DNA from: an uncultured Flavobacteriales bacterium
GTDB taxonomy: Bacteria > Bacteroidota > Bacteroidia > Flavobacteriales_D > Parvicellaceae
DNA length: 37,547 bases
Direction of reading: 5' to 3'
Assembly: GCA_905480225.1 (NCBI GenBank)
Contig: CAJQPO010000030.1
Location: 1-37,547 of the forward strand
Under the pieces are notes generated by a model. The model had not been told where the DNA came from, searched no databases, and saw only the letters and a list, made by a program, of their open reading frames with translations. Shown here piece after piece: positions 2,898 through 26,269 of the stretch. The translations under genes were made by a program, and so were the position numbers. Position 1 is the stretch's first letter. Every line of letters starts with the position of its first letter.

Positions 2898-2973
2898 ATA
2901 CAACCTCAGTCATTTCTCGCATAATCCTTTTTCGTTTTGAACCAATTCGAATGTCATCTGTACTGCATTGCAT

Positions 2974-3819
2974 ATGGAACAGAAAAACATCTTTAAACTT
3001 TTCAAAGACGCAAGGGATTTTCAAATCCTCTGGCTCTCTATTTTTCTTCTTTATGGAGTATGGAATCTACAATGGAATAATTTCGCAAGCTACGCCGTTA
3101 TCTTTTCGTCTTGTTTAATCACTCAGGTATTTTGCAATTTCTTAGTAAGTGTTCCTAAGCCATCTGTTAAAAGTGCCATTATTACCGCACTCAGTTTATG
3201 TTTACTATTTAGTGCAAACTCTCTTTGGACTTTTGCCCTTTGCGGAATCCTATCAATTGCAAGCAAATTCTTACTTCGCTTGAATAAAAAACACATTTTT
3301 AACCCCTCACTATTTGGTATTGTTTTTTGTTTATTATTCACCGATGACGCGTGGGTAAGCCCGGGTAAATGGGGCAACGAATACTTATTGGTAGTATTCT
3401 TTATTGCTTGTGCACTACTGGTATTACTAAAAGTAGGCAGAATTGATACTAGCCTTGCATTTTTGGGCACCTTAATGACACTAGAATTTTTCAGAACATG
3501 TATCTATTTCAATGATAACATGTGGGTATTTCTTCAAAAATTCTCTAGTGGAACCATATTACTTTTTGCCTTTTTCATGATTACCGACCCCATGACTACC
3601 CCAAGGTCATTCAAAGGAAGGCTGATTTACGGTTGTCTTGTTGGTGGATTAACGTTTTACCTCACAAACTGGTTACAAGCCTATGATGCACCTATATGGG
3701 CACTAACTATTGCGACACCCTTTACTATACTCATTAACACATTATTCAAAGGAGCACGGTTTAATTGGCTCCCAGAACACATGAACATAACTATTAATTC
3801 TAAAAAACAAGTGATATGA
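2974..3819 (+). CDS. RnfD/NqrB-like polytopic membrane protein
   Basis: A 281-residue protein with about eight hydrophobic segments. I chose ATG 2974 over an upstream TTG at 2968. It resembles the NQR2/RnfD/RnfE family through IFNPSLFGIVF (like the IFNPA segment of RnfD) and FFMITDPMTTPRSFKGRLI (like the ATDP...PRGRLI segment). In true NqrB and RnfD a threonine in an S/T-GAT motif carries covalent FMN. I find no such motif here; the corresponding region reads DDAWVSPGKWG. The protein may therefore be a non-flavinylated paralogue. It overlaps the downstream DUF2330 gene by 4 bp (ATGA), so the two are probably made together. No other Rnf or Nqr subunits are in the window, so ion pumping should not be assumed. 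Confidence 0.72.
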   Translation: MEQKNIFKLFKDARDFQILWLSIFLLYGVWNLQWNNFASYAVIFSSCLITQVFCNFLVSVPKPSVKSAIITALSLCLLFSANSLWTFALCGILSIASKFLLRLNKKHIFNPSLFGIVFCLLFTDDAWVSPGKWGNEYLLVVFFIACALLVLLKVGRIDTSLAFLGTLMTLEFFRTCIYFNDNMWVFLQKFSSGTILLFAFFMITDPMTTPRSFKGRLIYGCLVGGLTFYLTNWLQAYDAPIWALTIATPFTILINTLFKGARFNWLPEHMNITINSKKQVI

Positions 3820-5255
3820 AAAAGTACGTATTATTAGCACTGTTAGTCATAACCAGTGCCGAACTCTTCGCATTCTGCGGTTTTTATGTAGCCAAAGCAG
3901 ACGCCAAAATATTCAACAAAACATCTCAGGTTATATTGGTAAGAGACGGTGATTATACCGTAGTAACGATGAGTAATGATTTTAAAGGAGATGTCAAAGA
4001 CTTTGCCATGGTCGTACCCGTTCCAGTAGTTCTTAATCGACAAGATATCCGAACTGTAAATCCAAATGTTTTTAGCAAACTAGACGCGTATTCAGGTCCC
4101 AGACTAGTTGAATACCACGACAATAATCCATGTTACAGAATTGTCGATAATGAGATAATGCTAATGGACATGGCTCCAGTAAATGAAATGTCCATGAGAT
4201 CAGCTGGTAATTTAGAACAAGATAAAAAGTACAAAGTGACCGTTGAAGCAGAATACAAGGTAGATGAATACGACATTTTAATCCTTTCTGCTAAAGAATC
4301 ATCAGGATTAAAACAATGGCTTACCGAAAATGGGTATAAAATTCCCGGAACTGCTGCCGCTGTTCTTGATCCTTACATAAAAAATAACTTAAAGTTCTTT
4401 GTAGTCAAAGTAGATGCTGACCGCCTTGCCCAAAAAGGTACGGGTACCATGAGCCCTTTACAAATTGGCTTCAACTCGCCGAAATTCATGCTGCCCATTC
4501 GGCTTGGGATGGCCAATGCGGATGGCGATCAAGACATGATTGTTTATGGACTTACCAAAAAAGGCAGAATTGAATGCACAAATTACCGGACTGTAGAAAT
4601 CCCTACGAATAGAAATGTGCCAACTTTTGTCAGGGATAATTTCAGTTCTTTCTATAAAGATCTTTTTAACAAAGCTTATAAATATCAAGGAAGAAATGCC
4701 GTTTTTCTTGAGTATGCTTGGAATGTCTCCCCAAGTTTTCGAGGTATGAAATGTGATCCTTGTGTTGGGCCGCCTCCAATATCAAGAGATCTTTCACAAG
4801 CCGGAGTCTATTGGAATGGCAACGTTCACTTTACGCGTCTTCATGTACGGTATAGCCAAGAAAAATTTGCTCAAGACCTTTTTTTTCAAGTAACCCCTAA
4901 CAAAGAAAATTTTCAAGGGAGATACATCATCACCAATCCCGCTCGCGGCCCTTTTGATTGCGATGAAGGACAAGCCTACCTTTCCAAACTCGTAAATAGA
5001 AGACAAAATGAATTATCAGAGCTACAGGCATTAACCGGCTGGTCAGGAAGTGATCGACCACATTATGTAAAGGGATACCAAAGCTTAATCAAAAACGATT
5101 CTGAACGAAACGAGATTCTTGTTCCAATCACTTCACCACCTTCTGACGGCTTCTTACCGAAACTCTATTTCACATTGGCAATGGTGCTAATTGTAATTCT
5201 TCTATTAAGCAATTCGCTCGCACAATTGTTTCAAAGAAGAACTCGAGCACTATAG
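3816..5255 (+). CDS. DUF2330 domain-containing exported protein
   Basis: A 479-residue protein with an N-terminal signal peptide (MKKYVLLALLVITSAELFAF) followed directly by CGFYVAKADAKIFN, the characteristic opening of DUF2330 proteins. The large central part is extracytoplasmic. One hydrophobic segment near the C-terminus (about residues 448-468) is followed by a basic tail QRRTRAL, which predicts a membrane anchor with the tail in the cytoplasm. Several cysteines occur, including a CDPC pair near residue 315. The molecular function of DUF2330 is not established. Start overlaps the preceding RnfD-like gene by 4 bp, so a joint membrane complex is a reasonable inference. A terminator follows 8 bp after the stop. 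Confidence 0.85.
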   Translation: MKKYVLLALLVITSAELFAFCGFYVAKADAKIFNKTSQVILVRDGDYTVVTMSNDFKGDVKDFAMVVPVPVVLNRQDIRTVNPNVFSKLDAYSGPRLVEYHDNNPCYRIVDNEIMLMDMAPVNEMSMRSAGNLEQDKKYKVTVEAEYKVDEYDILILSAKESSGLKQWLTENGYKIPGTAAAVLDPYIKNNLKFFVVKVDADRLAQKGTGTMSPLQIGFNSPKFMLPIRLGMANADGDQDMIVYGLTKKGRIECTNYRTVEIPTNRNVPTFVRDNFSSFYKDLFNKAYKYQGRNAVFLEYAWNVSPSFRGMKCDPCVGPPPISRDLSQAGVYWNGNVHFTRLHVRYSQEKFAQDLFFQVTPNKENFQGRYIITNPARGPFDCDEGQAYLSKLVNRRQNELSELQALTGWSGSDRPHYVKGYQSLIKNDSERNEILVPITSPPSDGFLPKLYFTLAMVLIVILLLSNSLAQLFQRRTRAL

Positions 5256-5748: not shown

Positions 5749-6759
5749 ATGACAAGAATATTTGTATTGGTTTTCGTAACCTTTATATCGACTAGTTGCT
5801 TCATCATTGAAGAATATGAAACAGCCTCTATAGCCCAGAATGAGCCTGAAAAAAGAGAAAAACAAGAAATAATACAAGATAGTATTGTTGATTATCTTAC
5901 AAAACAATACCGTGACGGGGCAAGCTATAAAGCGTACACTTTTGGATCTCTTTATTCTAACAAACCACAAGAAATAGTTGAACTAGAACAACTTTATGAA
6001 ATTAAAAGAATGCTGCCGACCATGCAACAGCACTATGGAAATAGACTAGACAGCGTTATGTTGGAAAATGACAACCAGATTAACACCAAGAACAAGGAAA
6101 TCAGAGAGAACCGTATTTTCACAACCTATGACCTCACTCACTTATATTGCATCAAGGATTCTCTAGATAATTTTGAAATTGTTGAGACCCAGTTTCTACT
6201 CTATCCAAATTACAAAATCAAAGATCTAAAACTGGTATTCTCTGTAACTATTGATAAACGCGAATTAGAACTTTTCGAACATTTCATTCATCAAGATCCG
6301 TTGGTTTTTGATAATGATTACAATTATCAAAAGAAAATGAATGCGCACACGTACGCTAAACTTAATAAATCCATGATCAACGCTTTACCTGAAAAAAAAG
6401 GTGCACTGCTCAAAACAATTCTTAAGAAAGTGAAATTTTACCAAATGAACAATGGTTTTGATGCGGATGTTTTTGCCAACTTTCTTTTATCTGAATGGTC
6501 AAAAACGCCAACATTAAATGTATCCATTGAGGAAGTCATAAAATCTTCAAAGCTAAAAATGATTAAAGGAAAAAGTGATTCGCTGACTACAGATGTTCCA
6601 TACGAGACCCTGTTAGGATACAAAAAGTTTTTACTGGTTAAGGGTACTTGGGAGAAAAAAATACAAGAAGAAAAAGCGCTGTATTGCGAATTTGACAATA
6701 ACTTGGTTCTATTGGGTGTTCTGCCCGTTGAAGGAGATTTTGAAAAATATTTCGAATGA
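5749..6759 (+). CDS. Putative lipoprotein of unknown function
   Basis: A 336-residue protein that I do not recognise. The N-terminus MTRIFVLVFVTFISTSC is a type II signal peptide with the lipidated Cys at position 17. The mature protein is hydrophilic and rich in Lys, Glu and Asn. It begins with an acidic, probably disordered stretch, and the rest looks mixed alpha/beta with no catalytic motif I can name. It is the first gene of a pair: the next gene starts inside its stop codon (ATGA, 4-bp overlap), so the two are probably translated together and may interact at the cell envelope. Nearest-neighbour context gives no further functional clue. Confidence 0.7.
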   Translation: MTRIFVLVFVTFISTSCFIIEEYETASIAQNEPEKREKQEIIQDSIVDYLTKQYRDGASYKAYTFGSLYSNKPQEIVELEQLYEIKRMLPTMQQHYGNRLDSVMLENDNQINTKNKEIRENRIFTTYDLTHLYCIKDSLDNFEIVETQFLLYPNYKIKDLKLVFSVTIDKRELELFEHFIHQDPLVFDNDYNYQKKMNAHTYAKLNKSMINALPEKKGALLKTILKKVKFYQMNNGFDADVFANFLLSEWSKTPTLNVSIEEVIKSSKLKMIKGKSDSLTTDVPYETLLGYKKFLLVKGTWEKKIQEEKALYCEFDNNLVLLGVLPVEGDFEKYFE

Positions 6760-7985
6760 TTCAAAATGTTCTCTGCCTTCTACTCCTTATAAATGCGGTT
6801 ACATATAGTCAGGAAACTACTTATTATTATCATATCAATTATAAAGGTGACACCGTTAAACTACGAACAATTGGTAACCCATCCGTTTGCGATTGTATTA
6901 AGCTAGAGTACCGAAACATTGACCAAAAAAAGATTTGTGCAAAGAAGTTTGATTATGATTTCATGTCTGAAAAAGACCAAAGAGATTTTGATGCACAAAA
7001 AGAAATCTGCAATAATCCCTCTATTTGTGATTGTGCAAAGGCCGACCTAAATAATACCGGGCTAATAAAAGCATGCGATAATAAGTTTGGACTAAAATGG
7101 ATAACAGCTTCAGAAAAAAAAGAGTTGCTTGCTAGAATGCATGAATGTACTGATGATGACCTATCCTATCCTAAATTAATAGCGAAATCTATGCAACAAA
7201 CAGAAATTTGTGACTGCATAAATTTGAGTGATAAGAATTATGACTTGAAGAAAAAGTGTGAGCGCCTATTTTTCGATGAAAACACCAAGACTCTTGAAGA
7301 ACTGGAAACCAATACCGCTCTTCTTCAAAAATGCATCGAAGACAAAAACTTTTCTATTGATCCGACTATTTGTGAATGTAAGAAATATGCAAAAAATGAC
7401 AACGACTTCTACATTGCCTGTTCTGAAAAATTTGACACAATTTCCATGAGCGTTAGGGAACTACGAGATTATAAGGCCGCAACAATACTTTGTTCCGAAT
7501 TGGATTTTTACAGACACCTGAACACACTTATTAAAGAGTTACACAGTAATCCAACGCTAAATAACAAATCAATCAATGAACAACAACTGATGGACCCTGT
7601 ACAGGTCGAGCGGTTCGATGAAACGGATAATTGGATTGAATCGAATACAATCAACTATGAGCAGCGTGTAAGACAATTAATCCTTAACACAGCTAAAATT
7701 CAAATCTGCGATTGCATCCACCTGACTAATCCATCGGAAAGTCGAATAGAAGCGTGTGTTAATTACTTTAAGTTGAATATTTTATCACTAAAAGATCTTT
7801 CTACACTAAAAAATATTGCTCGGCATTGCTCGAATCAAATAGAAATCGAAACGATTTGTGATTGTGTAAGTGCTAAAGAAAATACCTTATCTGCTATTGA
7901 TAAAGAAAGTTGCAGAAAATTAATTGCACCGTTGTCTACAAGTGATTTGATAAAATTCATGAATGGCGAAAAAAAATGTGACTAA
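6756..7985 (+). CDS. Secreted six-repeat CDC-motif cysteine protein
   Basis: A 409-residue protein with a signal peptide (about residues 1-18, ending TYSQ). The mature chain contains six repeats of the pattern C-D/E-C, about 13-15 residues, C, about 4 residues to a hydrophobic position (often Phe), about 20 residues, C. Examples are C45-D-C47/C61/C85, C91-D-C93/C107/C131, C152-D-C154/C168/C193 and C206-E-C208/C222/C246. Two further copies lie in the last 95 residues, and a non-repeat stretch separates repeats four and five. Each repeat thus has four conserved cysteines, which suggests two disulfides or a metal site per module. No enzyme motif is visible and I do not recognise a named family. 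It is coupled to the preceding lipoprotein by a 4-bp overlap. Confidence 0.75.
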   Translation: MIQNVLCLLLLINAVTYSQETTYYYHINYKGDTVKLRTIGNPSVCDCIKLEYRNIDQKKICAKKFDYDFMSEKDQRDFDAQKEICNNPSICDCAKADLNNTGLIKACDNKFGLKWITASEKKELLARMHECTDDDLSYPKLIAKSMQQTEICDCINLSDKNYDLKKKCERLFFDENTKTLEELETNTALLQKCIEDKNFSIDPTICECKKYAKNDNDFYIACSEKFDTISMSVRELRDYKAATILCSELDFYRHLNTLIKELHSNPTLNNKSINEQQLMDPVQVERFDETDNWIESNTINYEQRVRQLILNTAKIQICDCIHLTNPSESRIEACVNYFKLNILSLKDLSTLKNIARHCSNQIEIETICDCVSAKENTLSAIDKESCRKLIAPLSTSDLIKFMNGEKKCD

Positions 7986-11509: not shown

Positions 11510-11517
11510 TATTTTTG
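11510..11517 (+). promoter_or_regulatory. Possible -7 element for the Nramp-family gene
   Basis: TATTTTTG matches TAnnTTTG exactly. No TTTG is found at the usual upstream spacing. It precedes both candidate start codons (11557 and 11611) and is divergent from the promoter of the saccharopine dehydrogenase-like gene. Confidence 0.4.
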
Positions 11518-16255: not shown

Positions 16256-19200
16256 TTACCGAATCAACATCAATCGATAGGTTTTACTTGAGTTACTTGA
16301 CGAAATACGTAAGTAATAAGTTCCACTTCGTTCGCCGTTAAGATCAAACCTAACGACTCCCTCGTTTGAGCCTGACCTTCGAGTTTTAATTAATTGACCT
16401 ACGATGTCAAAAATTTCAAAGTTGAGTTCTTTTGCACCAGACACCTGATAATTTACTTTAAAAACTTCACTTGTTGGATTGGGGTAGATTAATACATTCC
16501 AAGAATTATTTTCTACGATCAAAGCAGGCGCACTTATCTCAAATGAATCGACTACCATACATCCTAAAGCATCTTCTACATTTAGAGTATACCATCCAGG
16601 CAGCAAAGAATCAATATTAAACACGGTGTCGCCATTGCTCCATAGCACTTCAAAAGGTCCGGTTGGTGAACCAGTTAAACTGATTGAAATTGCACCATCA
16701 GCGCAAGTTGGACAACTCGCATCAGCAACAGATCCCACCAGTCCATAAGAGGAACTAGAAAGAACCACATAGTCCATTGTTTTTGTGCATCCGGTTCCCT
16801 GATCTATTATTTCTACTGAATAATTACCTGCAGTTAAACCGGTTATGTCTTCTGTAGACTCCCCATTAGACCATGTAAAAGTAAATGGCCCAACACTCCC
16901 ACTCAAATTTAAATCAATTGAACCATTACCAAAACCACAACTATCCGACTGAATGACATCAGTTATTGTAAACCCTATGGTATCGTTAATAACAACGGTA
17001 ATCGAGTCTATACAACCGTCATCTAAGTTCGTTACGGTTGCTACATAGGTATTTGCTGACAATCCACTGATGTCTTCTGTTGTGTCTCCTGTATTCCAGC
17101 TGTAGTCAAAAGGTCCTGATCCACCTGCCACGGATAAATCAATACTGCCTGTTCCGTCACTGCAAAACTCGTGAGTTGCTGTGTATGAACTTGAGAAACT
17201 AAAGCTGTCGTTAATTGTTGTGTCCATTGTACCAATACAACCAGAACCATCGTCAATGGTTACAGAATAAGTTCCTGCAACAACACCAAATAAGTCTTGG
17301 GTTGTAGCACCATTGCTCCAACTATATGCATAAGAAGAAGATGGCGGCGAAACATAAATATCAATGATTCCATCATTTCCGCTGCAATTCTCATCACTAA
17401 CATTAACATAAATTGAGGAAAAGGTAAGTGTGTTACCTATTGTCTCTATGGTCTCTATGCTACAACCATCAGCATCCTCAACAGTTACCGTATATGTACC
17501 CGTAAAGAGACCATTTAATGGGGTGCCAGATTGAAGTACTCCATCAAGATAATAAGAGAAGGTACTAGAACCTATTGCGACTACATCAATCTCTCCAACT
17601 CCCGTAGCACAATGGTCATCTTCAATAGAAATTGAAGAAAATGCAAGTAACGAATTGTAAGTACTGTCCACTTCAAAGATTTCCGTTCTAGTGCAGCCAG
17701 TACCATCTGTAATTTCGAGTTCATAGGAGCCGGCGGTTAATCCTGAAATACTCGTGTTTGCACTTGCAGGACAAGCTCCAGTAAAGCTGAATAAGGGACC
17801 TACAGGAGGGTTTGGTCCCTGCATAAAAATTATTGCTCCTGATGCATCCAACAAATTGAATGAAACTTCACCATCAAAAGCACCTGCACTCCAAATTAAC
17901 TCTACATTTTCTCCATCACAAACTTCAAATGTTTCCATATTTGCTCCACCACCGAAAACGGTAAATGTTCCAATGGAAACCCCATCAATTACTACTTCTA
18001 CCGTAGCACCATTCCAACTCGTGCTTGCATCAAACATATCTAAAGTATAATCACAACAAGTTTGCCCAGAACCAGCACCATCCCAACTAAAAGAATAAGG
18101 TGATAAACCTCCAGATACAGCGACAAAAACACTGCCATTATCATCATTACACAGTTCGTGTTCAACAGAGGAGGTAATACTAAAACTATCATCACTTATA
18201 ATCGAACCTGAATAATTTAAAGCACATCCTGTTTGATCTGTTACTGTACACGTATATAGTCCCGAGGTGAGGCTAGTTAGGTCTTCAGTAGTTTCTCCAT
18301 TCGACCAGCTAAAGACATAAGGTATGGAGCCACCTGATATCGAAAGATCAATAGCACCTGTGCTGTCTTGACAAATTTCATTGGTAGTGATCGAACCAGT
18401 AATCATAATTCCAGTGGTCACATTTAAAATATCAATTGAACCTACTGCAGAACAACCTAAAGAGTTTGTTGCGATCACCTCATAATTCCCTGCTGTTAAA
18501 CCAGTAATATCTTCCGATATAGAACCGTTAGACCACGAAAATGCATACACATCAGGCAACGAAACGGTTAAGTCTATCATTCCTGAAGAATCTCCACAAC
18601 TTTCATCCGTTGCGACCAATGCAATAGTAAAACCAGGGTCAGTAATAATCGTTGTATCAATCGTGCCGGTACAACCAGAGCCATCACTTACCGTTAAACT
18701 ATAGTACCCAGCCATGATACCTGAGAGATCCTCAGTCGAAGCTCCGGTATTCCATAAATATGAATACGCGCCAGAAGGAGAAACGGTCACATCAAGAGCT
18801 CCATTACTCAAACCACAATCTTCGTCAGTAACATTAGAGAAACTTAACTCGAAAGGAAGAATATCATTTATCGTAATGTCTTGTTCTACAGTACATCCAT
18901 TCTCATCTTCAATAACAACATTGAATACTCCGGCACCAATTCCAAACCAATTTGGAAATGTCGTCGAATTCCCATCTAAATAATACGTGTAAAATGTTCC
19001 ACCAGTGGCAGTAACACTTAGATCTCCTCCTATACCACAATTTGCATCAACGGCAGTAATGGTAGAAAAATCAAGTAAATAATTCCAAGAGCTGTCAACT
19101 ACATATGTTTGAGAATAACTGCAGCCTACATCATCGGTAATGGTTAAGTCATAGGAGCCCGCATTTAATCCATTAATCGATGAAACATTCGTACCTGTCC

Positions 19201-22200
19201 CTGGACAGGCAGATACGAAACTATGCAGAGACCCGACAGGTGGGTCTATTCCCTGCGTAAAGATTACTGTACCAGCAGGATCACTTAATGTAAATCCAAC
19301 CTCTTCATCCCAAGCACCAGAATTCCAGAAAAGCTCTACATTGTCTCCATTGCAAACCTCGAATGTTTCTGTATTTGCCGATCCACCACCAGGAATAGTA
19401 TGGTTACTCGTAAGAACACCATTAATTTCAACGTCAATAGAAGCACCGTTCCACCCATCTCCGAAAGAATCTGTCATGTCAATCGTGTAATCACAACAAT
19501 TACCTGACCCCCCTCCAGACCAAGTAAATGTATATGGAGATATTCCACCAACTACAGTAACCGTAATACTTCCATCACTATTATCACATAATTCATCTTG
19601 AATTACTTCAGTTATCACTAAACTTCCACCCGTATTAACAACGTCTCCAGAATAATTTAAAACGCAGCCCGATAAATCCGTGATTTGACAGGTATAAACC
19701 CCAGATGATAAACCTGAAATATCTTCTGTAGTTGCTCCATTAGACCATAAAAATGCATAAGGTAATGAACCTCCTACTAAAGTCAAATCAATGAATCCAG
19801 TTCCATCACCACAATTCTCATTCTGAATATTAGCACTGGACAACACCAATCCTGTAGTCACATTACTGATTAGAGTATCTAGGATTAAAGAACAACCTGC
19901 TCCATCTCCTACTGTTACTGCGAAACTACCTGCAGCTAGCCCCGACAAATCCTCTGTAACAGACCCGTCAGACCAAATAAAATCATAGGGTGCAAAACCT
20001 CCCGTAACAGTTAAATCTATCGCCCCTGTTGAATCTCCGCAATTCTCGTCCGTTACGCTTGTAATTTCTGCCATAAAACCACCCGTATTGTTTACAATAG
20101 TAATGGATGTTGATACCATACAACCGAAATTATCAAGAACGTCCACAGAATAGGTTCCTGCTACTAATCCAGCTAGATCTTCTGTAGTTTCTCCACTTGT
20201 CCATAAATAAGTTATCGGCGCATTTCCACCAGAAACGTGCAGGTCAATTGACCCACCCTCATTACCACAACTTTCATCCATAAAAGAAACACTATCAATT
20301 GATAGTGAACCTGTATTACTATTTATCAGAAATGTTTGGCTCACCGTACAACCGTTAAAATCGGTTACCAGCAAATCGTAGTTACCGGAAATCAATCCGT
20401 CCACATCTTCAGATATTGCTCCATTAGACCAATCAAATGTAAGTGGTGCTGTACCTCCTGTTATGGTAATATCAATTGACCCCTCAGCATTTCCGCAAAT
20501 TTCATCTGAAACCGTTGCGCCAGAGATAGCTAGACTCCCTCCAGCATTATTTATTTCTTCTGTATGCGAAATTGTGCAGCCATTACCATCGGTTATTTGA
20601 ACACTATAAGAACCAGCAGACAAACCTGTTAAGTCTTCACTCGTTGAACCATTCGACCATGAAAAATCAATAGGAGCAGCACCTCCAACGACAGTAATAT
20701 TTATAGATCCCATTCCATTTCCACATGCTTCATCTGACACGACAGAGGCTGAAACGGCTAATGCTCCAGCGTTGTTTCCGACACTAGTGGATATAGGTAA
20801 TTCACATCCGTTTTGATCAGTTACTGTACAGGTATAAATTCCCGACGTAAGACTATTCAAATCTTCTGTTGTAGCTCCTGTGTTCCACAAAAAATTATAA
20901 GGCGGTAGGCCCCCACTAACACTAACATTTAATGAGCCTAAACTATTACCGCATTGTTCATCAAATACAATGACATTGTCTAAAGACAAAGTGCCTGGAT
21001 CATTAGATAGCACCACCATTCCTGTACTTAGGAAACATCCATTATTATCAGAAATATCACAAGAATAATTTCCTTGTGCTAATCCAGAAATATCCTCTGT
21101 TATTGCGCCATTAGACCAAGAGAAAAGTACCGGAGCACTTCCACCCGTTACAACAAGATTAATTTCCCCTAACCCATTACCGCACAGCTCATTGCTCACA
21201 ATAATACTATCAACAGAAAGTGTTCCCGGTATGTCAGTCAAATTAAAGGAACTGAAACTTGTACACCCCGCGGTATCAGATACGGTTACATCATACAATC
21301 CAGCCGTCAAACCCGAAATATCTTCTGTTGTTTCCAATGTGCTCCACAAAAAAGAGGGAGCACCATTAGCACCCGTAACCGTAATATCAAAACTACCGAT
21401 ACCTGCACTACACGTATCATCTACAATTAAAGCTGATATAATTAATGACCCTGGATTATTGACTACTTCAAGATTACCTGTTGTTACTGAACAACCAGAT
21501 CCATCGGTGATTGTACAAGAATAGTTTCCGGCACTTAAACCAACTATATCTTGTGATGTTTCTCCAGTATTCCAAAGAAAAGTATAACCTCCTGAGCCAG
21601 TAATATCCAGAAGAATTGAACCCGAACCATTTGAGCATATTTCACTGGTAATTGTTGGTGTAACAGCTAATGAAGTAGTGCTATTATTTACCTCATAAGA
21701 CCCACTTACTTGACAACCCGTGTTATCACTTACCTCTACTATATAGGTGCCTGCAATTAATCCCGATAAATCTTCTGATGTTGAGGCATTAGACCATAAA
21801 ATAGTGTAGGGTAAAGAACCTCCAGAAAGAATCAAATCAATCGATCCATTTCCATCCCCACAATTTTCATCAATCACTATTGCATTGTCAATGTTAAGTG
21901 TTCCAGGTATGTTGTTTATTATTTCAGAATGTGCTGTAACACAACCCACTGAATCACTCACAGTAACTGTATATGTTCCTGCAGAAGCATTTAACAGATC
22001 TTGAGATATTGATCCGCTTGACCAACTGTAGGTAAATGGTGTTGTTCCTCCCGACACATCGATATTGATTGCACCAGAACCATTGCCACAAATCTCATCT
22101 GTTACAAAATTAGTCGAAACAGAAAGTGATGATGGGGCATTGAACAGATCTAATGCGCCTGTTGATGTTTCGCAACCGTTTGCATCTATAATTACGCAAT

Positions 22201-25200
22201 TGTATACTCCCGCAGAAAGACCTGACAAATCTTCAGTTACAGCACCAGTATTCCATAAAAAATCTATTATAGATCCACCGGAAACTTCTAAATCAATACT
22301 TCCTAGCGCATTACTACACTGTTCATTGTTTATGGTAATGTTATCCAAAGACAACGAACCTGAAGTATTCAAAACAGTGTAGACATTAGTGACTAAGACA
22401 CAACCGGAAAAATCGGTAATTGTACAGGTGTAATCACCGGCATTTAAATTAGATAAGTCTTGTGTCGTCTGACCCGAATCCCATGAAATGGTTAATGGCA
22501 AATTACCCCCTACAATATTCAAATCAATTTCACCAATTCCAGCATTGCATGTATCATTAACGACAGATCCTGTTTCCACAAGTGTCCCCGTATTGTTATT
22601 GATAATAGCAGTATCTGAAATAGAACAACCCGTCGCGTCGGTTATAATTACAGTATAGGTTCCAGAGGAAAGCGCATCAATATCCTCTGTTGATTCTGCA
22701 TTCGACCAAGTATATGAATAAAGCAAAGAACCTCCAGTAACAGATAAATCTATTGATCCAGACCCATCACCGCATGTCTCATCAATCACATGAATACTTG
22801 ACACTTCAAAAGAACCACTAGAATTAGGAACAACAATCGTGGCAGAATCTTCGCATCCTTGAGCGTCATTAACGTAAACGGTATAGGTGCCAGACACTAA
22901 TCCCGTTAAATCTTCAATTGAAGGGCCATGACTCCAAGAAACATTGTACGGGTTAACAGGGTCAGTAACCGTTATATCAATAGATCCAAGGCCGCTTAAG
23001 CAAGTGTCAGACAATGCAGTTATGTTGGTAATGTCTAAATAACAAAACCCAGAGCATGCGCTAACATCATTAAGCACTGTGAAATTCTCATCTATTGAAC
23101 AACCATTACCATCGGTAACAGTCAGGTCATATGCCCCACCGGACAATCCAAATATATCGTCTGTGAATTCACCACTTGACCAAGAAAAACCATAGGATCC
23201 AGTTCCTCCAGAAGCTGAAACTTGAATACTGCCGTTACCCGTTCCACAAACCTCGTTAACAAGTGCCTCAAGATCAACTACTATTAACGGCATTTCGCCT
23301 ACCGTAATGTCTTCACTATAAACGCAACCATCCGCATCTGTAATCGATGCGGTATAAGTCCCTGCCATCAGCCCAGTAATGTCTTCAGTAGTAGGTCCAT
23401 GCGCCCAACTAATAGCATAACCGGGTGTTCCTCCCGAGATAGATATATCAATCGAAGCATCAGCACCGCCAGCACATGTGGCATCGGATAAAATCGAAGA
23501 AATATTTATAGAGCTAATGTTGTTTAATAAAAATGTCGCTGAATCTACACAAGAGGTAGTATCCGTAACCCAAATCGTATAGGTTCCACCCGAAATACCA
23601 ACTAAATCTTCCGTCGTCGCCCCATTTGACCACAAATAAGTAAATGGTCCGTGTTCGCCAATCACATCAACATTTATTTCCCCATCGGAACCTCCACAAG
23701 TAGCTTGAGTAATAAAGCCTCCAATGTTTAATCCTTCGGGCTCTTCGATAACAACCGTAGTATCTGGCAAATCCGAAAGCAAGGAAATATTCCACTCAAA
23801 AATATATCCATTATCAAGACCGTAATTATCAGTTACTTCTAAGGTCCAAATTCCATTTAATTCAGCCCCCAACAATTGATCTAACGGTTCGAATGATGCG
23901 TATGAGCCAGCGATTAAATAATTATCTGTGTAATTGTGTCCTTGCGAATCAGTATAATTTCTTACCCACGTATTTGATTCTGCAACCATCGTTCCCCACG
24001 TCGGTGATTCGTTCCAACAATAATCGTATCCTACTCCTGGATCAGTAAGTGTCGAACTAGCTCCACCATCAACAGGCCCAGTCGCTATTGGCTCACCTAA
24101 ATCACAGGAACCACCTCCAGGGAAATCCTTAAGAAGGACAGATTCTCCAGACGGAGCAATTATTCTAATACTCAAATCACCCAAATAAGAATGCTCTAAA
24201 CTGGCACATATCTGCTGAAGTTGACTAATAGTGTCAAGTGTTGCTCCTGTATCAAATCCTGCAATAACAATATCACTGGTATATGTAACACCACTTCCAT
24301 CAGGTAAGAAAGTTTGACCGGCATCAAAAGCCCCTCCAATAACTAATGCATCTGCCTTGCAACCGTAAAAATCATATACCTGAACCGTATATTCTCCAGC
24401 GGCTTGATTACCAATAGGAGAAACGGTATAATTGTTTACATTGCCTGAGGAGTCTGTCACTTCATACGTGTACGGCGGAAACCCACCAACGGCATTTACC
24501 GTAATAACTCCAGTACTGTCCTCGTGACATAATAAGTCTATTCCATTCAAATCAAATTCAATAGGTTGGGCATCATCTATCAACAAAACAGCGGTATCAA
24601 TCGGAGAACAAGCATCTGGCTGATATATAATATAGATGGTTTCTTGCCCCTCGGTAATGCCATCTTGAATTGAATTAATAATAACAGACGCTGATGTCTG
24701 ACCAGCTGGAATGGTGAGTAAAGTATCGATGAATTGATAGTCAACTCCATTGGTTGCTGATCCCATCACCCAATAGGAAATATCTGTATCTGTCGCAGAT
24801 GGATCGGCAATACTGAAAGTAAAAGAAGCGGGGATACATCCTTCAAGAGCAATACCGTCTGAATTAACGGTTTCTGTTTGAACAGTAATATCTTTTGTAA
24901 AACCAGAAAAATAACCAGCAGCTCCAATATTTCCAGATAAATTTATAAGTGCTACCCTTGCTAAGTCATCTGAAGAAACCTGCACATCACCAGTATATCC
25001 TGCAGCAAGTTTATAGGTAACATAATCTGACGTCCCAACCACAGCATCTCCCGGCCCTTGTAAAATCCCGTTAACATAGACATTAGATCCCGTGTTCGCG
25101 ATGATGTTAATTAGAGCAGTGCCAATTGAGTCCACATTTGGAAGCCTAACATCCTTGCTGCCAGAACAGCCAACCGGTGGAAGAAAATTCAATCCACATT

Positions 25201-26269
25201 GCCGTTCATTGTCATCTGTAAGGCCATCTCCCCCATTCGCCATTTGATAAACAAATACATCTTCTGAAGATTGCAAATAAAGATTGTCATTGGCAGAAAA
25301 AGACGTTCCATCAATAACATAATAATCCCCAGCATTGATGGTAGCTGTGGCAACAGCGCTTCCATCTAAAAAAAGATCAGTGCCATTAACGGTTCCAATC
25401 ACCATGGTTTTTTCGTTATCAATCCCCTCTCCTTTAATCAAAACATACTCGTTGCCAATTTTATCAATAGGTACGATTTGATCAATACCAATGTCTCGAC
25501 CAGCCGCTTGAGAGCCACCCACAATCGCATTGCCACCTAACCATGTGCCCGAATTCACACAGATCGGTTTATCAGATGTAATGTGGGTTCCGTTAACTCC
25601 ATTAACATTATTCGTGGCAGCAGCCTCATCAAGAAATGCAGCCATCACATAGGTTTCTCCTGCATCCAAAACGATCAGTACATCAGGCGAAGTTAAAGGA
25701 GTCCCAACAGGAATAGTACCCCTGAAAATAACACCCGCTGAAATATCAGATATGTTGATTGTCGTGTTATCCTCGGTTGCCATAATTCCAAAAACGTTGC
25801 TTTTTCGCCAATCATTTCCACTATGATTAAACATGTGACCGGTTCTAAAATCTGTTCCTAAAGCTGCATTTCTTCCTTTTGACGTAAGCGACATTGCTTG
25901 AGGATTTGCAAACACCCTAAAATTGACATAAAATGCCTCTGGAGCTTCCAGAATCAAGCCCTTATCTGTTTTTATCGAATTTAATTCCGCTTCTGTAACC
26001 AAGAATTGTGAGCCTGAACCACAAGCAATGGGCACAGAAACTGAAGCAGCTGCAGATACCGCTACCGTATTGATTGGGGTTCCAGTACCATCAGTAATTG
26101 TAACGTTAAATGGTGTAATAGAAGGCGTACTGATAACAGCATAATGACAACCAAAATCTTCTCTACCAAAAACAGGTGGTATGAAATGTTTTACATCTAA
26201 TTGCGCAAAATAATTTAAACCCGACAGCAGAAAAACTATAATTATGGCAATTCTAAGGAAAATAATCAT
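16256..26269 (-). CDS. Giant SprB-repeat T9SS surface protein (3337 aa)
   Basis: A 3337-residue cell-surface protein. A signal peptide ends near residue 23 (NYFAQ). Residues about 25-460 resemble the IgGFc-binding N-terminal domain, with a motif around GTHITSDKPICVNSG. A Calx-beta-like segment covers about 470-580. One leading SprB-like module is followed by a proprotein convertase P-domain-like region at about 645-830. About 29 SprB modules of 72-80 residues then run to about 3250; each has an E/D-x-C-G start, a W-S/N-x-G-x-x-T-E-D-L/I core and a D-x-x-GC end. Two modules carry inserted domains. The C-terminus is a T9SS type A sorting domain beginning LIYPNPTSEVF. SprB repeats are known from the Flavobacterium johnsoniae gliding adhesin. 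An adhesin or surface-filament role is inferred; I saw no enzymatic motif. Confidence 0.92.
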   Translation of the reverse strand: MIIFLRIAIIIVFLLSGLNYFAQLDVKHFIPPVFGREDFGCHYAVISTPSITPFNVTITDGTGTPINTVAVSAAASVSVPIACGSGSQFLVTEAELNSIKTDKGLILEAPEAFYVNFRVFANPQAMSLTSKGRNAALGTDFRTGHMFNHSGNDWRKSNVFGIMATEDNTTINISDISAGVIFRGTIPVGTPLTSPDVLIVLDAGETYVMAAFLDEAAATNNVNGVNGTHITSDKPICVNSGTWLGGNAIVGGSQAAGRDIGIDQIVPIDKIGNEYVLIKGEGIDNEKTMVIGTVNGTDLFLDGSAVATATINAGDYYVIDGTSFSANDNLYLQSSEDVFVYQMANGGDGLTDDNERQCGLNFLPPVGCSGSKDVRLPNVDSIGTALINIIANTGSNVYVNGILQGPGDAVVGTSDYVTYKLAAGYTGDVQVSSDDLARVALINLSGNIGAAGYFSGFTKDITVQTETVNSDGIALEGCIPASFTFSIADPSATDTDISYWVMGSATNGVDYQFIDTLLTIPAGQTSASVIINSIQDGITEGQETIYIIYQPDACSPIDTAVLLIDDAQPIEFDLNGIDLLCHEDSTGVITVNAVGGFPPYTYEVTDSSGNVNNYTVSPIGNQAAGEYTVQVYDFYGCKADALVIGGAFDAGQTFLPDGSGVTYTSDIVIAGFDTGATLDTISQLQQICASLEHSYLGDLSIRIIAPSGESVLLKDFPGGGSCDLGEPIATGPVDGGASSTLTDPGVGYDYCWNESPTWGTMVAESNTWVRNYTDSQGHNYTDNYLIAGSYASFEPLDQLLGAELNGIWTLEVTDNYGLDNGYIFEWNISLLSDLPDTTVVIEEPEGLNIGGFITQATCGGSDGEINVDVIGEHGPFTYLWSNGATTEDLVGISGGTYTIWVTDTTSCVDSATFLLNNISSINISSILSDATCAGGADASIDISISGGTPGYAISWAHGPTTEDITGLMAGTYTASITDADGCVYSEDITVGEMPLIVVDLEALVNEVCGTGNGSIQVSASGGTGSYGFSWSSGEFTDDIFGLSGGAYDLTVTDGNGCSIDENFTVLNDVSACSGFCYLDITNITALSDTCLSGLGSIDITVTDPVNPYNVSWSHGPSIEDLTGLVSGTYTVYVNDAQGCEDSATIVVPNSSGSFEVSSIHVIDETCGDGSGSIDLSVTGGSLLYSYTWSNAESTEDIDALSSGTYTVIITDATGCSISDTAIINNNTGTLVETGSVVNDTCNAGIGEIDLNIVGGNLPLTISWDSGQTTQDLSNLNAGDYTCTITDFSGCVLVTNVYTVLNTSGSLSLDNITINNEQCSNALGSIDLEVSGGSIIDFLWNTGAVTEDLSGLSAGVYNCVIIDANGCETSTGALDLFNAPSSLSVSTNFVTDEICGNGSGAINIDVSGGTTPFTYSWSSGSISQDLLNASAGTYTVTVSDSVGCVTAHSEIINNIPGTLNIDNAIVIDENCGDGNGSIDLILSGGSLPYTILWSNASTSEDLSGLIAGTYIVEVSDNTGCQVSGSYEVNNSTTSLAVTPTITSEICSNGSGSILLDITGSGGYTFLWNTGETSQDIVGLSAGNYSCTITDGSGCSVTTGNLEVVNNPGSLIISALIVDDTCSAGIGSFDITVTGANGAPSFLWSTLETTEDISGLTAGLYDVTVSDTAGCTSFSSFNLTDIPGTLSVDSIIVSNELCGNGLGEINLVVTGGSAPVLFSWSNGAITEDISGLAQGNYSCDISDNNGCFLSTGMVVLSNDPGTLSLDNVIVFDEQCGNSLGSLNVSVSGGLPPYNFLWNTGATTEDLNSLTSGIYTCTVTDQNGCELPISTSVGNNAGALAVSASVVSDEACGNGMGSINITVVGGAAPIDFSWSNGSTSEDLTGLSAGSYSVQITDGNGCTISHTEEINNAGGSLAISGATVSDEICGNAEGSIDITITGGTAPLTFDWSNGAISEDVDGLISGNYDLLVTDFNGCTVSQTFLINSNTGSLSIDSVSFMDESCGNEGGSIDLHVSGGNAPITYLWTSGETTEDLAGLVAGTYSVDVLDNFGCMVSTSITIVNNTGGFMAEITSVTDENCGDSTGAIDLTVTGGFAPYDFIWSDGSVTEDLSGLAAGSFAVTVGDGAGCSLILDTLISNVTTGLVLSSANIQNENCGDGTGFIDLTLVGGSLPYAFLWSNGATTEDISGLSSGVYTCQITDLSGCVLNYSGDVVNTGGSLVITEVIQDELCDNSDGSITVTVVGGISPYTFTWSGGGSGNCCDYTIDMTDSFGDGWNGASIDVEINGVLTSNHTIPGGGSANTETFEVCNGDNVELFWNSGAWDEEVGFTLSDPAGTVIFTQGIDPPVGSLHSFVSACPGTGTNVSSINGLNAGSYDLTITDDVGCSYSQTYVVDSSWNYLLDFSTITAVDANCGIGGDLSVTATGGTFYTYYLDGNSTTFPNWFGIGAGVFNVVIEDENGCTVEQDITINDILPFELSFSNVTDEDCGLSNGALDVTVSPSGAYSYLWNTGASTEDLSGIMAGYYSLTVSDGSGCTGTIDTTIITDPGFTIALVATDESCGDSSGMIDLTVSLPDVYAFSWSNGSISEDITGLTAGNYEVIATNSLGCSAVGSIDILNVTTGIMITGSITTNEICQDSTGAIDLSISGGSIPYVFSWSNGETTEDLTSLTSGLYTCTVTDQTGCALNYSGSIISDDSFSITSSVEHELCNDDNGSVFVAVSGGLSPYSFSWDGAGSGQTCCDYTLDMFDASTSWNGATVEVVIDGVSIGTFTVFGGGANMETFEVCDGENVELIWSAGAFDGEVSFNLLDASGAIIFMQGPNPPVGPLFSFTGACPASANTSISGLTAGSYELEITDGTGCTRTEIFEVDSTYNSLLAFSSISIEDDHCATGVGEIDVVAIGSSTFSYYLDGVLQSGTPLNGLFTGTYTVTVEDADGCSIETIETIGNTLTFSSIYVNVSDENCSGNDGIIDIYVSPPSSSYAYSWSNGATTQDLFGVVAGTYSVTIDDGSGCIGTMDTTINDSFSFSSSYTATHEFCSDGTGSIDLSVAGGSGPFDYSWNTGDTTEDISGLSANTYVATVTNLDDGCIDSITVVINDTIGFTITDVIQSDSCGFGNGSIDLNLSGSVGPFTFTWSNGESTEDITGLTAGNYSVEIIDQGTGCTKTMDYVVLSSSSYGLVGSVADASCPTCADGAISISLTGSPTGPFEVLWSNGDTVFNIDSLLPGWYTLNVEDALGCMVVDSFEISAPALIVENNSWNVLIYPNPTSEVFKVNYQVSGAKELNFEIFDIVGQLIKTRRSGSNEGVVRFDLNGERSGTYYLRISSSNSSKTYRLMLIR
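16520..23770 (-). repeat. Array of about 29 SprB-type protein modules
   Basis: I count 29 consecutive modules, each about 225-230 bp, with two interrupted by roughly 315-bp inserts. All have a conserved Cys near the module start and, apart from an SC variant in the first, a GC dipeptide near the end. The DNA copies are clearly diverged, unlike the rpsP tail repeat. This indicates an old expansion with protein-level conservation. Confidence 0.88.
16982..19862 (-). repeat. Duplicated five-module superunit inside the SprB array
   Basis: Modules 18-22 (about 18423-19862) and 23-27 (about 16982-18422) are each close to 1440 bp and match in order. Both start VTTG, and both have the inserted CCDYT-x-DM domain in the second module. 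Both have YYLDG in place of the Trp core in the third, VSP in the fourth with a TIDTTI/TMDTTI end, and a short fifth module. A single block duplication explains this. Confidence 0.85.

Follow-up and report, generated by a model that had tools for sequence, protein, structure and literature searches.

A lipoprotein gene and a six-repeat cysteine protein gene form a conserved pair in Flavobacteriales, and the repeat shows profile similarity to small CxC lipoproteins

We analyzed two adjoining genes in a 37,547-nucleotide stretch of DNA from an uncultured marine Flavobacteriales bacterium (assembly GCA_905480225.1, contig CAJQPO010000030.1; hereafter the window) that encode a lipoprotein and an exported protein with six copies of a four-cysteine repeat. 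No description of the pair exists in Pfam, NCBIfam, PHROGs or PADLOC, the four libraries that we searched. On our best reading of the sequences, the repeat protein would have arisen by expansion of an unnamed small-lipoprotein domain into a multidomain, non-lipidated form, and it is encoded beside a member of a wider lipoprotein family. We give about an even chance to the whole explanation developed below, in which the two genes are translationally coupled, both products are exported to the envelope, and a disulfide-stapled repeat array docks on the lipoprotein as a scaffold or binder.

The lipoprotein gene (positions 5749–6759, + strand; an open reading frame of 336 aa, family A2) encodes a signal peptide (residues 1–16) ahead of the lipid-attachment residue Cys17 (codon 5797–5799, + strand), assigned from a lipobox (STS-C17) read by eye. 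The repeat-protein gene (6756–7985, + strand; an open reading frame of 409 aa, exported) overlaps the lipoprotein stop with its start, and the ATGA junction reported in the preliminary description is present at 6756–6759. Measured against the nearest relative, L028, Ka/Ks is ~0.13 over the 336 codons of the lipoprotein gene and ~0.19 over the repeat-protein codons present in L028, of which there are only 164. Both genes are under purifying selection and both are therefore real genes. Promoter and terminator scans performed no better than chance.

The open reading frames, the cysteine tally and shuffling all agree with the earlier description of a lipoprotein followed by a second protein with six four-cysteine copies behind a signal peptide. 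That signal peptide, placed by eye at about residues 1–18 (6756–6809, + strand), has no lipobox. Behind it lies a predicted beta hairpin with a conserved NYKGDT motif (residues 21–39; 6816–6872, + strand; from the model and the sequence), which is missing from L007/L032. The repeats follow the plan C-x-C-x(13-15)-C-x(21-24)-C and were delimited, all on the + strand, by the cysteine pattern and by positional orthology to L027: repeat 1 (residues 45–85; 6888–7010), repeat 2 (residues 91–131; 7026–7148), repeat 3 (residues 152–193; 7209–7334), repeat 4 (residues 206–246; 7371–7493), in which the motif is CEC, repeat 5 (residues 318–358; 7707–7829), and repeat 6 (residues 368–408; 7857–7979), the most divergent, with 15/21 spacing. 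The spacer ahead of repeat 5 is much shorter or missing in five-repeat relatives.

Of the 25 cysteines, 24 lie within repeats and the 25th, C7, lies in the signal peptide, so that 24 of 24 mature cysteines belong to the framework. The cysteine pattern occurs six times in the real protein and at most twice in any of 20,000 shuffles of the same protein. The even spacing claimed for it holds inside the repeat, where C2–C3 is 13, 13, 13, 13, 13 and 15 residues and C3–C4 is 23, 23, 24, 23, 23 and 21 residues in repeats 1–6, but not between repeats: the CxC motifs start at residues 45, 91, 152, 206, 318 and 368, in steps of 46, 61, 54, 112 and 50. All four cysteines are kept in 30/30 repeats from six proteins, a count in which the extraction pattern itself demanded them. 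The window repeats are mutually 23–34% identical, and each best matches the L027 repeat at the same position (68, 52, 44, 50, 36 and 36% for repeats 1–6); the repeat expansion is therefore old and has not been homogenized. A structure prediction, which the preliminary description had suggested for the repeats, gave helices throughout along with the hairpin at residues 21–39, but the AlphaFold model is poor (pLDDT 63.3, pTM 0.37), and comparing it with PDB structures (Foldseek, VIA-align) returned only helical-solenoid noise, with Z at most 4.6.

Like the first reading of the sequence, which could match the repeat to no named domain, our searches of Pfam, NCBIfam, PHROGs and PADLOC gave no family match above cut-offs for either protein, and Pfam at E 1 gave no family for the repeat protein. 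Matches to TnsA_C (E 0.33), TusC (E 0.049) and phrog_18484 (E 0.087) fell far short of the cut-offs and were rejected. Against PDB sequences, nothing convincing was found for the repeat protein and no match for the lipoprotein; HMG-box proteins (PDB profile, best E 0.028) cover only the helix region of the third cysteine, without the cysteine framework, and were also rejected. Literature searches on CxC lipoproteins, Crocinitomicaceae and related subjects found nothing relevant. Neither outcome that the preliminary description had set against its own proposal arose: the repeats matched no characterized domain, and the pair, present in eight genomes, is not confined to one strain. The proposal of an undescribed module thus stands insofar as no library family covers it. 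The module is not isolated, however, since the repeat is akin to small CxC lipoproteins and the lipoprotein is one of a larger family whose members mostly have other neighbors.

The kinship with small lipoproteins emerged from weak matches of the repeat profile (A3; E 0.03–0.06), which led to one-domain CxC..C..C lipoproteins in L057 and L064. A search with one single-domain protein reached 22/150 Flavobacteriales genomes, its matches being mostly lipoproteins of 70–125 aa. At L057:1-2430 (G399) and L134, at least six short genes stand in a row, and each of them encodes a one-domain CxC lipoprotein; L064 has one such gene, rows recur in L144 and L158, and two-domain proteins occur in L139 and L147. 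A further copy in the L057 row, near 2190–2425, is apparently broken by a stop. The L139 protein (1090–1755, − strand) is a 220 aa lipoprotein with two near-identical in-frame CxC domains, which points to a recent duplication or else to an error in assembly. The small CxC lipoproteins matched no Pfam or NCBIfam model above cut-off; a match of one L057 protein to NCBIfam BamJ (E 0.0014) was rejected, its 18.9 bits lying below the cut-off of 100. The order searches found no single-domain match in the window's own genome, and G034 has both forms, a five-repeat protein and a single-domain lipoprotein.

Profile alignment of the 30 repeats with 27 single domains (hhalign) gave 95.5%, E 1.4e-8 and a score of 36.5. 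When only the non-cysteine columns were permuted, no score among 150 permutations exceeded 15.2; when all cysteines were masked, the real pair scored 16.2 against 8.9 for the best of 150. The likeness therefore exceeds the cysteines. The two kinds of protein share a four-cysteine helical domain, the CDC motif, export and the C3–C4 spacing (21–24 in the repeats and mostly 21–24 in the single domains). They differ in that the small lipoproteins are lipid-anchored, have a single domain (in rare cases two) and lie away from the window-type lipoprotein in the loci seen, whereas the repeat protein has six domains, the framework being present in six of six, and lacks a lipobox as judged by eye. From CxC to the third cysteine the small lipoproteins mostly have 33–35 residues (31–35 in 21/27 single domains, 12–18 in 6/27), against 11–15 in the 30 repeats and 13–15 in those of the window.

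This difference in C2–C3 spacing (13 versus mostly 34) is one point for an alternative that we consider unlikely, namely that the repeats and the small lipoproteins arrived independently at a short cysteine-stapled helical domain and that the six-repeat protein forms a separate family. Such convergence would also fit with the generous E-values of pairwise profile comparisons and with the choice of the 27 single domains by a pattern that demands the cysteines, although some single domains have the short spacing (12–17), the scores lie well above those of both sets of permutations, and profile A3 alone reached the L057 and L064 members, though only at E 0.03–0.06. In a check that did not demand the cysteines, 21/29 protein matches have all four of them within the match span plus 8 residues; in the other 8/29, C4 lies further on (seven loci checked; the eighth, L157, corresponds to domain two of the L139 protein). 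Our best reading of the repeat protein is still an expansion of the small-lipoprotein domain. At the level of the phylum, profile A7 matched 23/198 genomes, mostly through the lipobox and with no clear CxC member among the loci, so this count is unused. A phylum search with one mature single-domain protein matched 0/392 genomes, a result that is uninformative unless the sample includes a known positive genome, and we therefore make no claim that the small CxC lipoproteins are confined to the order.

The repeat protein itself is present in 7/40 relatives and in 7/39 genomes of the family, and the repeat profile identified 8/299 Flavobacteriales genomes at E below 1e-7 (the search listed 28 genomes, of which the other 20 are weak, at E 0.016–0.1, and were left uncounted). 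In a phylum-wide sample that holds few relatives, profile A3 at E 0.001 matched 1/345 genomes, the window's own. Three of the eight carriers belong to the window's genus, with six repeats in two complete copies and the third cut by a contig end; four belong to another genus of the same family and have five repeats, with one of the copies truncated at a contig end; the last, G034, belongs to another family and has five repeats. The linkage with the lipoprotein, a check proposed at the outset, holds in 8/8 carriers: in every one of them the repeat gene is preceded on its own strand by the lipoprotein gene, immediately in 7/8 and, in G034, with one gene for a 169 aa exported protein in between. 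The junction is a 4-base ATGA overlap in the window, L027, L028 and L086, and a gap of 0, 7 and 88 bases in L029, L030 and L031, respectively.

The window pair is flanked by genes for a Rieske protein and a tRNA nucleotidyltransferase (Pfam), in the same order in L027. L005, L029, L030, L031 and L032 have other flanking genes, some of which we take from their sequence to be CinA, GHMP kinase and ComEC. The flanks thus change between the window's genus and the five-repeat genus, and it is the pair, rather than the neighborhood, that is conserved. Elsewhere in the window we noted a 3337 aa protein (16256–26269, − strand) that carries an IgGFc-binding-like domain and 19 stretches of SprB repeat and has a type IX sorting tail, and a DUF2330 protein (3816–5255, + strand; E 4.6e-70) that adjoins an NQR2/RnfD-like membrane protein (2968–3819).

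The lipoprotein family is wider, being found in 84/299 Flavobacteriales genomes. A regular expression recognized a lipobox in 18/30 members and inspection by eye added L083, L089 and L103; the remaining members have ordinary signal peptides. Among 29 loci read, the gene behind the lipoprotein encodes the repeat protein in seven (the window's own included), a 169–189 aa exported protein of family A6 in ten (G034 included) and a 148–156 aa exported protein in two, and elsewhere is a convergent or unrelated gene; the second place behind the lipoprotein is therefore variable. Family A6 has no Pfam family above cut-off; its profile is similar to that of the first lipoprotein domain (95.9%, E 6e-9 over 160 columns, partly signal peptide). 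We observed A6 (WADxTF...FWSNIQT) directly behind the lipoprotein in L084, L088, L091, L092, L096–L100 and L103.

The lipoprotein occurs without the repeat protein in 76/84 genomes, so docking of the repeat protein is not its general role. This distribution, together with G052, a genome of the five-repeat genus that keeps the lipoprotein with an opposite-strand gene behind it, would also suit two genes that are merely co-transcribed without acting jointly. We doubt this account, because 8/8 repeat genes lie beside the lipoprotein gene, in differing neighborhoods and in two families of the order.

The AlphaFold model of the lipoprotein is good (pLDDT 83.4, pTM 0.72; seven sequences) and suggests two cystatin/NTF2-like domains. 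Domain 1 (residues 33–168; 5845–6252, + strand; AlphaFold, VIA-align) aligns with cystatin/NTF2-like domains at VIA Z up to 7.9 (rmsd 2.2–3.6 over 74–82 residues, with many tied rows at Z 7–7.9); with Z under 8, in the terms of the tool itself, such values may reflect no more than a common arrangement. It shares with those domains the predicted helix on a curved sheet, and differs from them by an inserted long helical hairpin (residues 74–121) and by the absence of a sequence match. Domain 2 (residues 238–336; 6460–6756, + strand; VIA-align) may be another domain of this kind; it aligns with the final domain in a VirB8-like protein (8s7l_C, VIA Z 6.9). Tandem-domain matches to 7pkw, 3ub1 and 4lzi are weak (rmsd 13–16 Å); the VirB8-like 7pkw reaches Z 7.0 but with an rmsd of 13.8. 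No secretion-system genes were recognized beside the pair in the window or in the relatives' loci. Foldseek returned nothing below E 0.001 for the model, and its matches to MHC-like chains (best E 0.03) were rejected at a TM of about 0.1. Lipoprotein export signals are given as C-X-K-(D/E)2 in Capnocytophaga and SDDFE in Flavobacterium (PMC5080379); a signal of this type is not clearly present in the C17-FIIEEYE sequence of the window lipoprotein.

For the repeat protein, the combination of export, an acidic composition, predicted helices and an invariant, even set of cysteines suggests that each repeat contains two disulfides and that the array is stiff. The known disulfide-forming oxidases give this no support: DsbB was found in 0/12 genomes and VKOR in 0/1 and 0/11 (controls detected in each case). 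For stapling, some other oxidase would then be required, or else chemical oxidation by oxic sea water. The same 12 genomes export many cysteine-rich proteins, yet neither DsbB nor VKOR was found in them. Literature searches on disulfide formation in Bacteroidetes found nothing relevant.

With DsbB and VKOR not found in 12/12 genomes, the thiols might stay reduced, which keeps alive the possibility, improbable in our estimate, that each four-cysteine repeat forms one thiolate site (for Cu(I), Zn or Fe-S), so that six atoms would be stored or passed on by a protein held at the membrane by the lipoprotein. The CxC pairs, the invariant four-cysteine set of each repeat and the acidic pI (5.36) fit such a protein. 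Histidine and methionine are few (six each in 391 residues), however, which speaks mildly against copper; no metal transporter lies directly at the pair (an Nramp gene at 11515 is outside the operon), and in other genomes the pair has unrelated genes around it. A related and still more doubtful proposal is a periplasmic multi-site thiolate protein whose six four-cysteine sites, alike in plan and reduced where DsbB and VKOR are lacking, would load metal or sense redox, with the cystatin-like outer-membrane lipoprotein as its receptor and the small-lipoprotein arrays of relatives as the single-site version. Disulfide stapling seems likelier to us than metal binding.

Under the stapling model, the lipoprotein would probably sit on the outer membrane and the repeat protein would be a soluble, exported chain of six tandem short helical domains, each with four invariant cysteines. 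In each repeat the CxC with which the first helix begins would pair with the cysteines that end the second and third helices, forming two disulfides, and the stapled repeats would build a stiff extended array. This array may dock on the lipoprotein, as its anchor or receptor, and could there serve as a periplasmic or surface scaffold or as a multivalent binder.

These results connect what had been an orphan repeat protein with a common class of small cysteine lipoproteins in Flavobacteriales that apparently has no name. Forms with one, two, five and six domains are now known, and both the unit and its cysteine chemistry could be tested on a 45-residue domain. A wider question is how, or whether, these bacteria form disulfides in exported proteins, given that DsbB and VKOR were not found in the 12 genomes searched.

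Among known systems, the Sel1-like Helicobacter cysteine-rich (Hcp) proteins consist of exported helical repeats of ~40 residues with one disulfide per repeat. The likeness to the window protein lies in exported helical repeats held by disulfides, as we propose here; Hcp repeats have two cysteines and the Sel1 motif, whereas the window repeats have four cysteines, and Pfam Sel1 matched neither the window protein nor the four relatives scanned. Copper storage proteins (Csp) form one four-helix bundle per chain. They too are exported, helical and rich in cysteine, and no Csp chains were among the PDB sequence matches at E 5; a Csp is a single bundle, whereas the repeat protein is built of repeats of a CxC domain. 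Twin CX9C proteins have two C-x9-C pairs, from which the repeat protein differs by its own order of CxC, then 13 residues, then 23.
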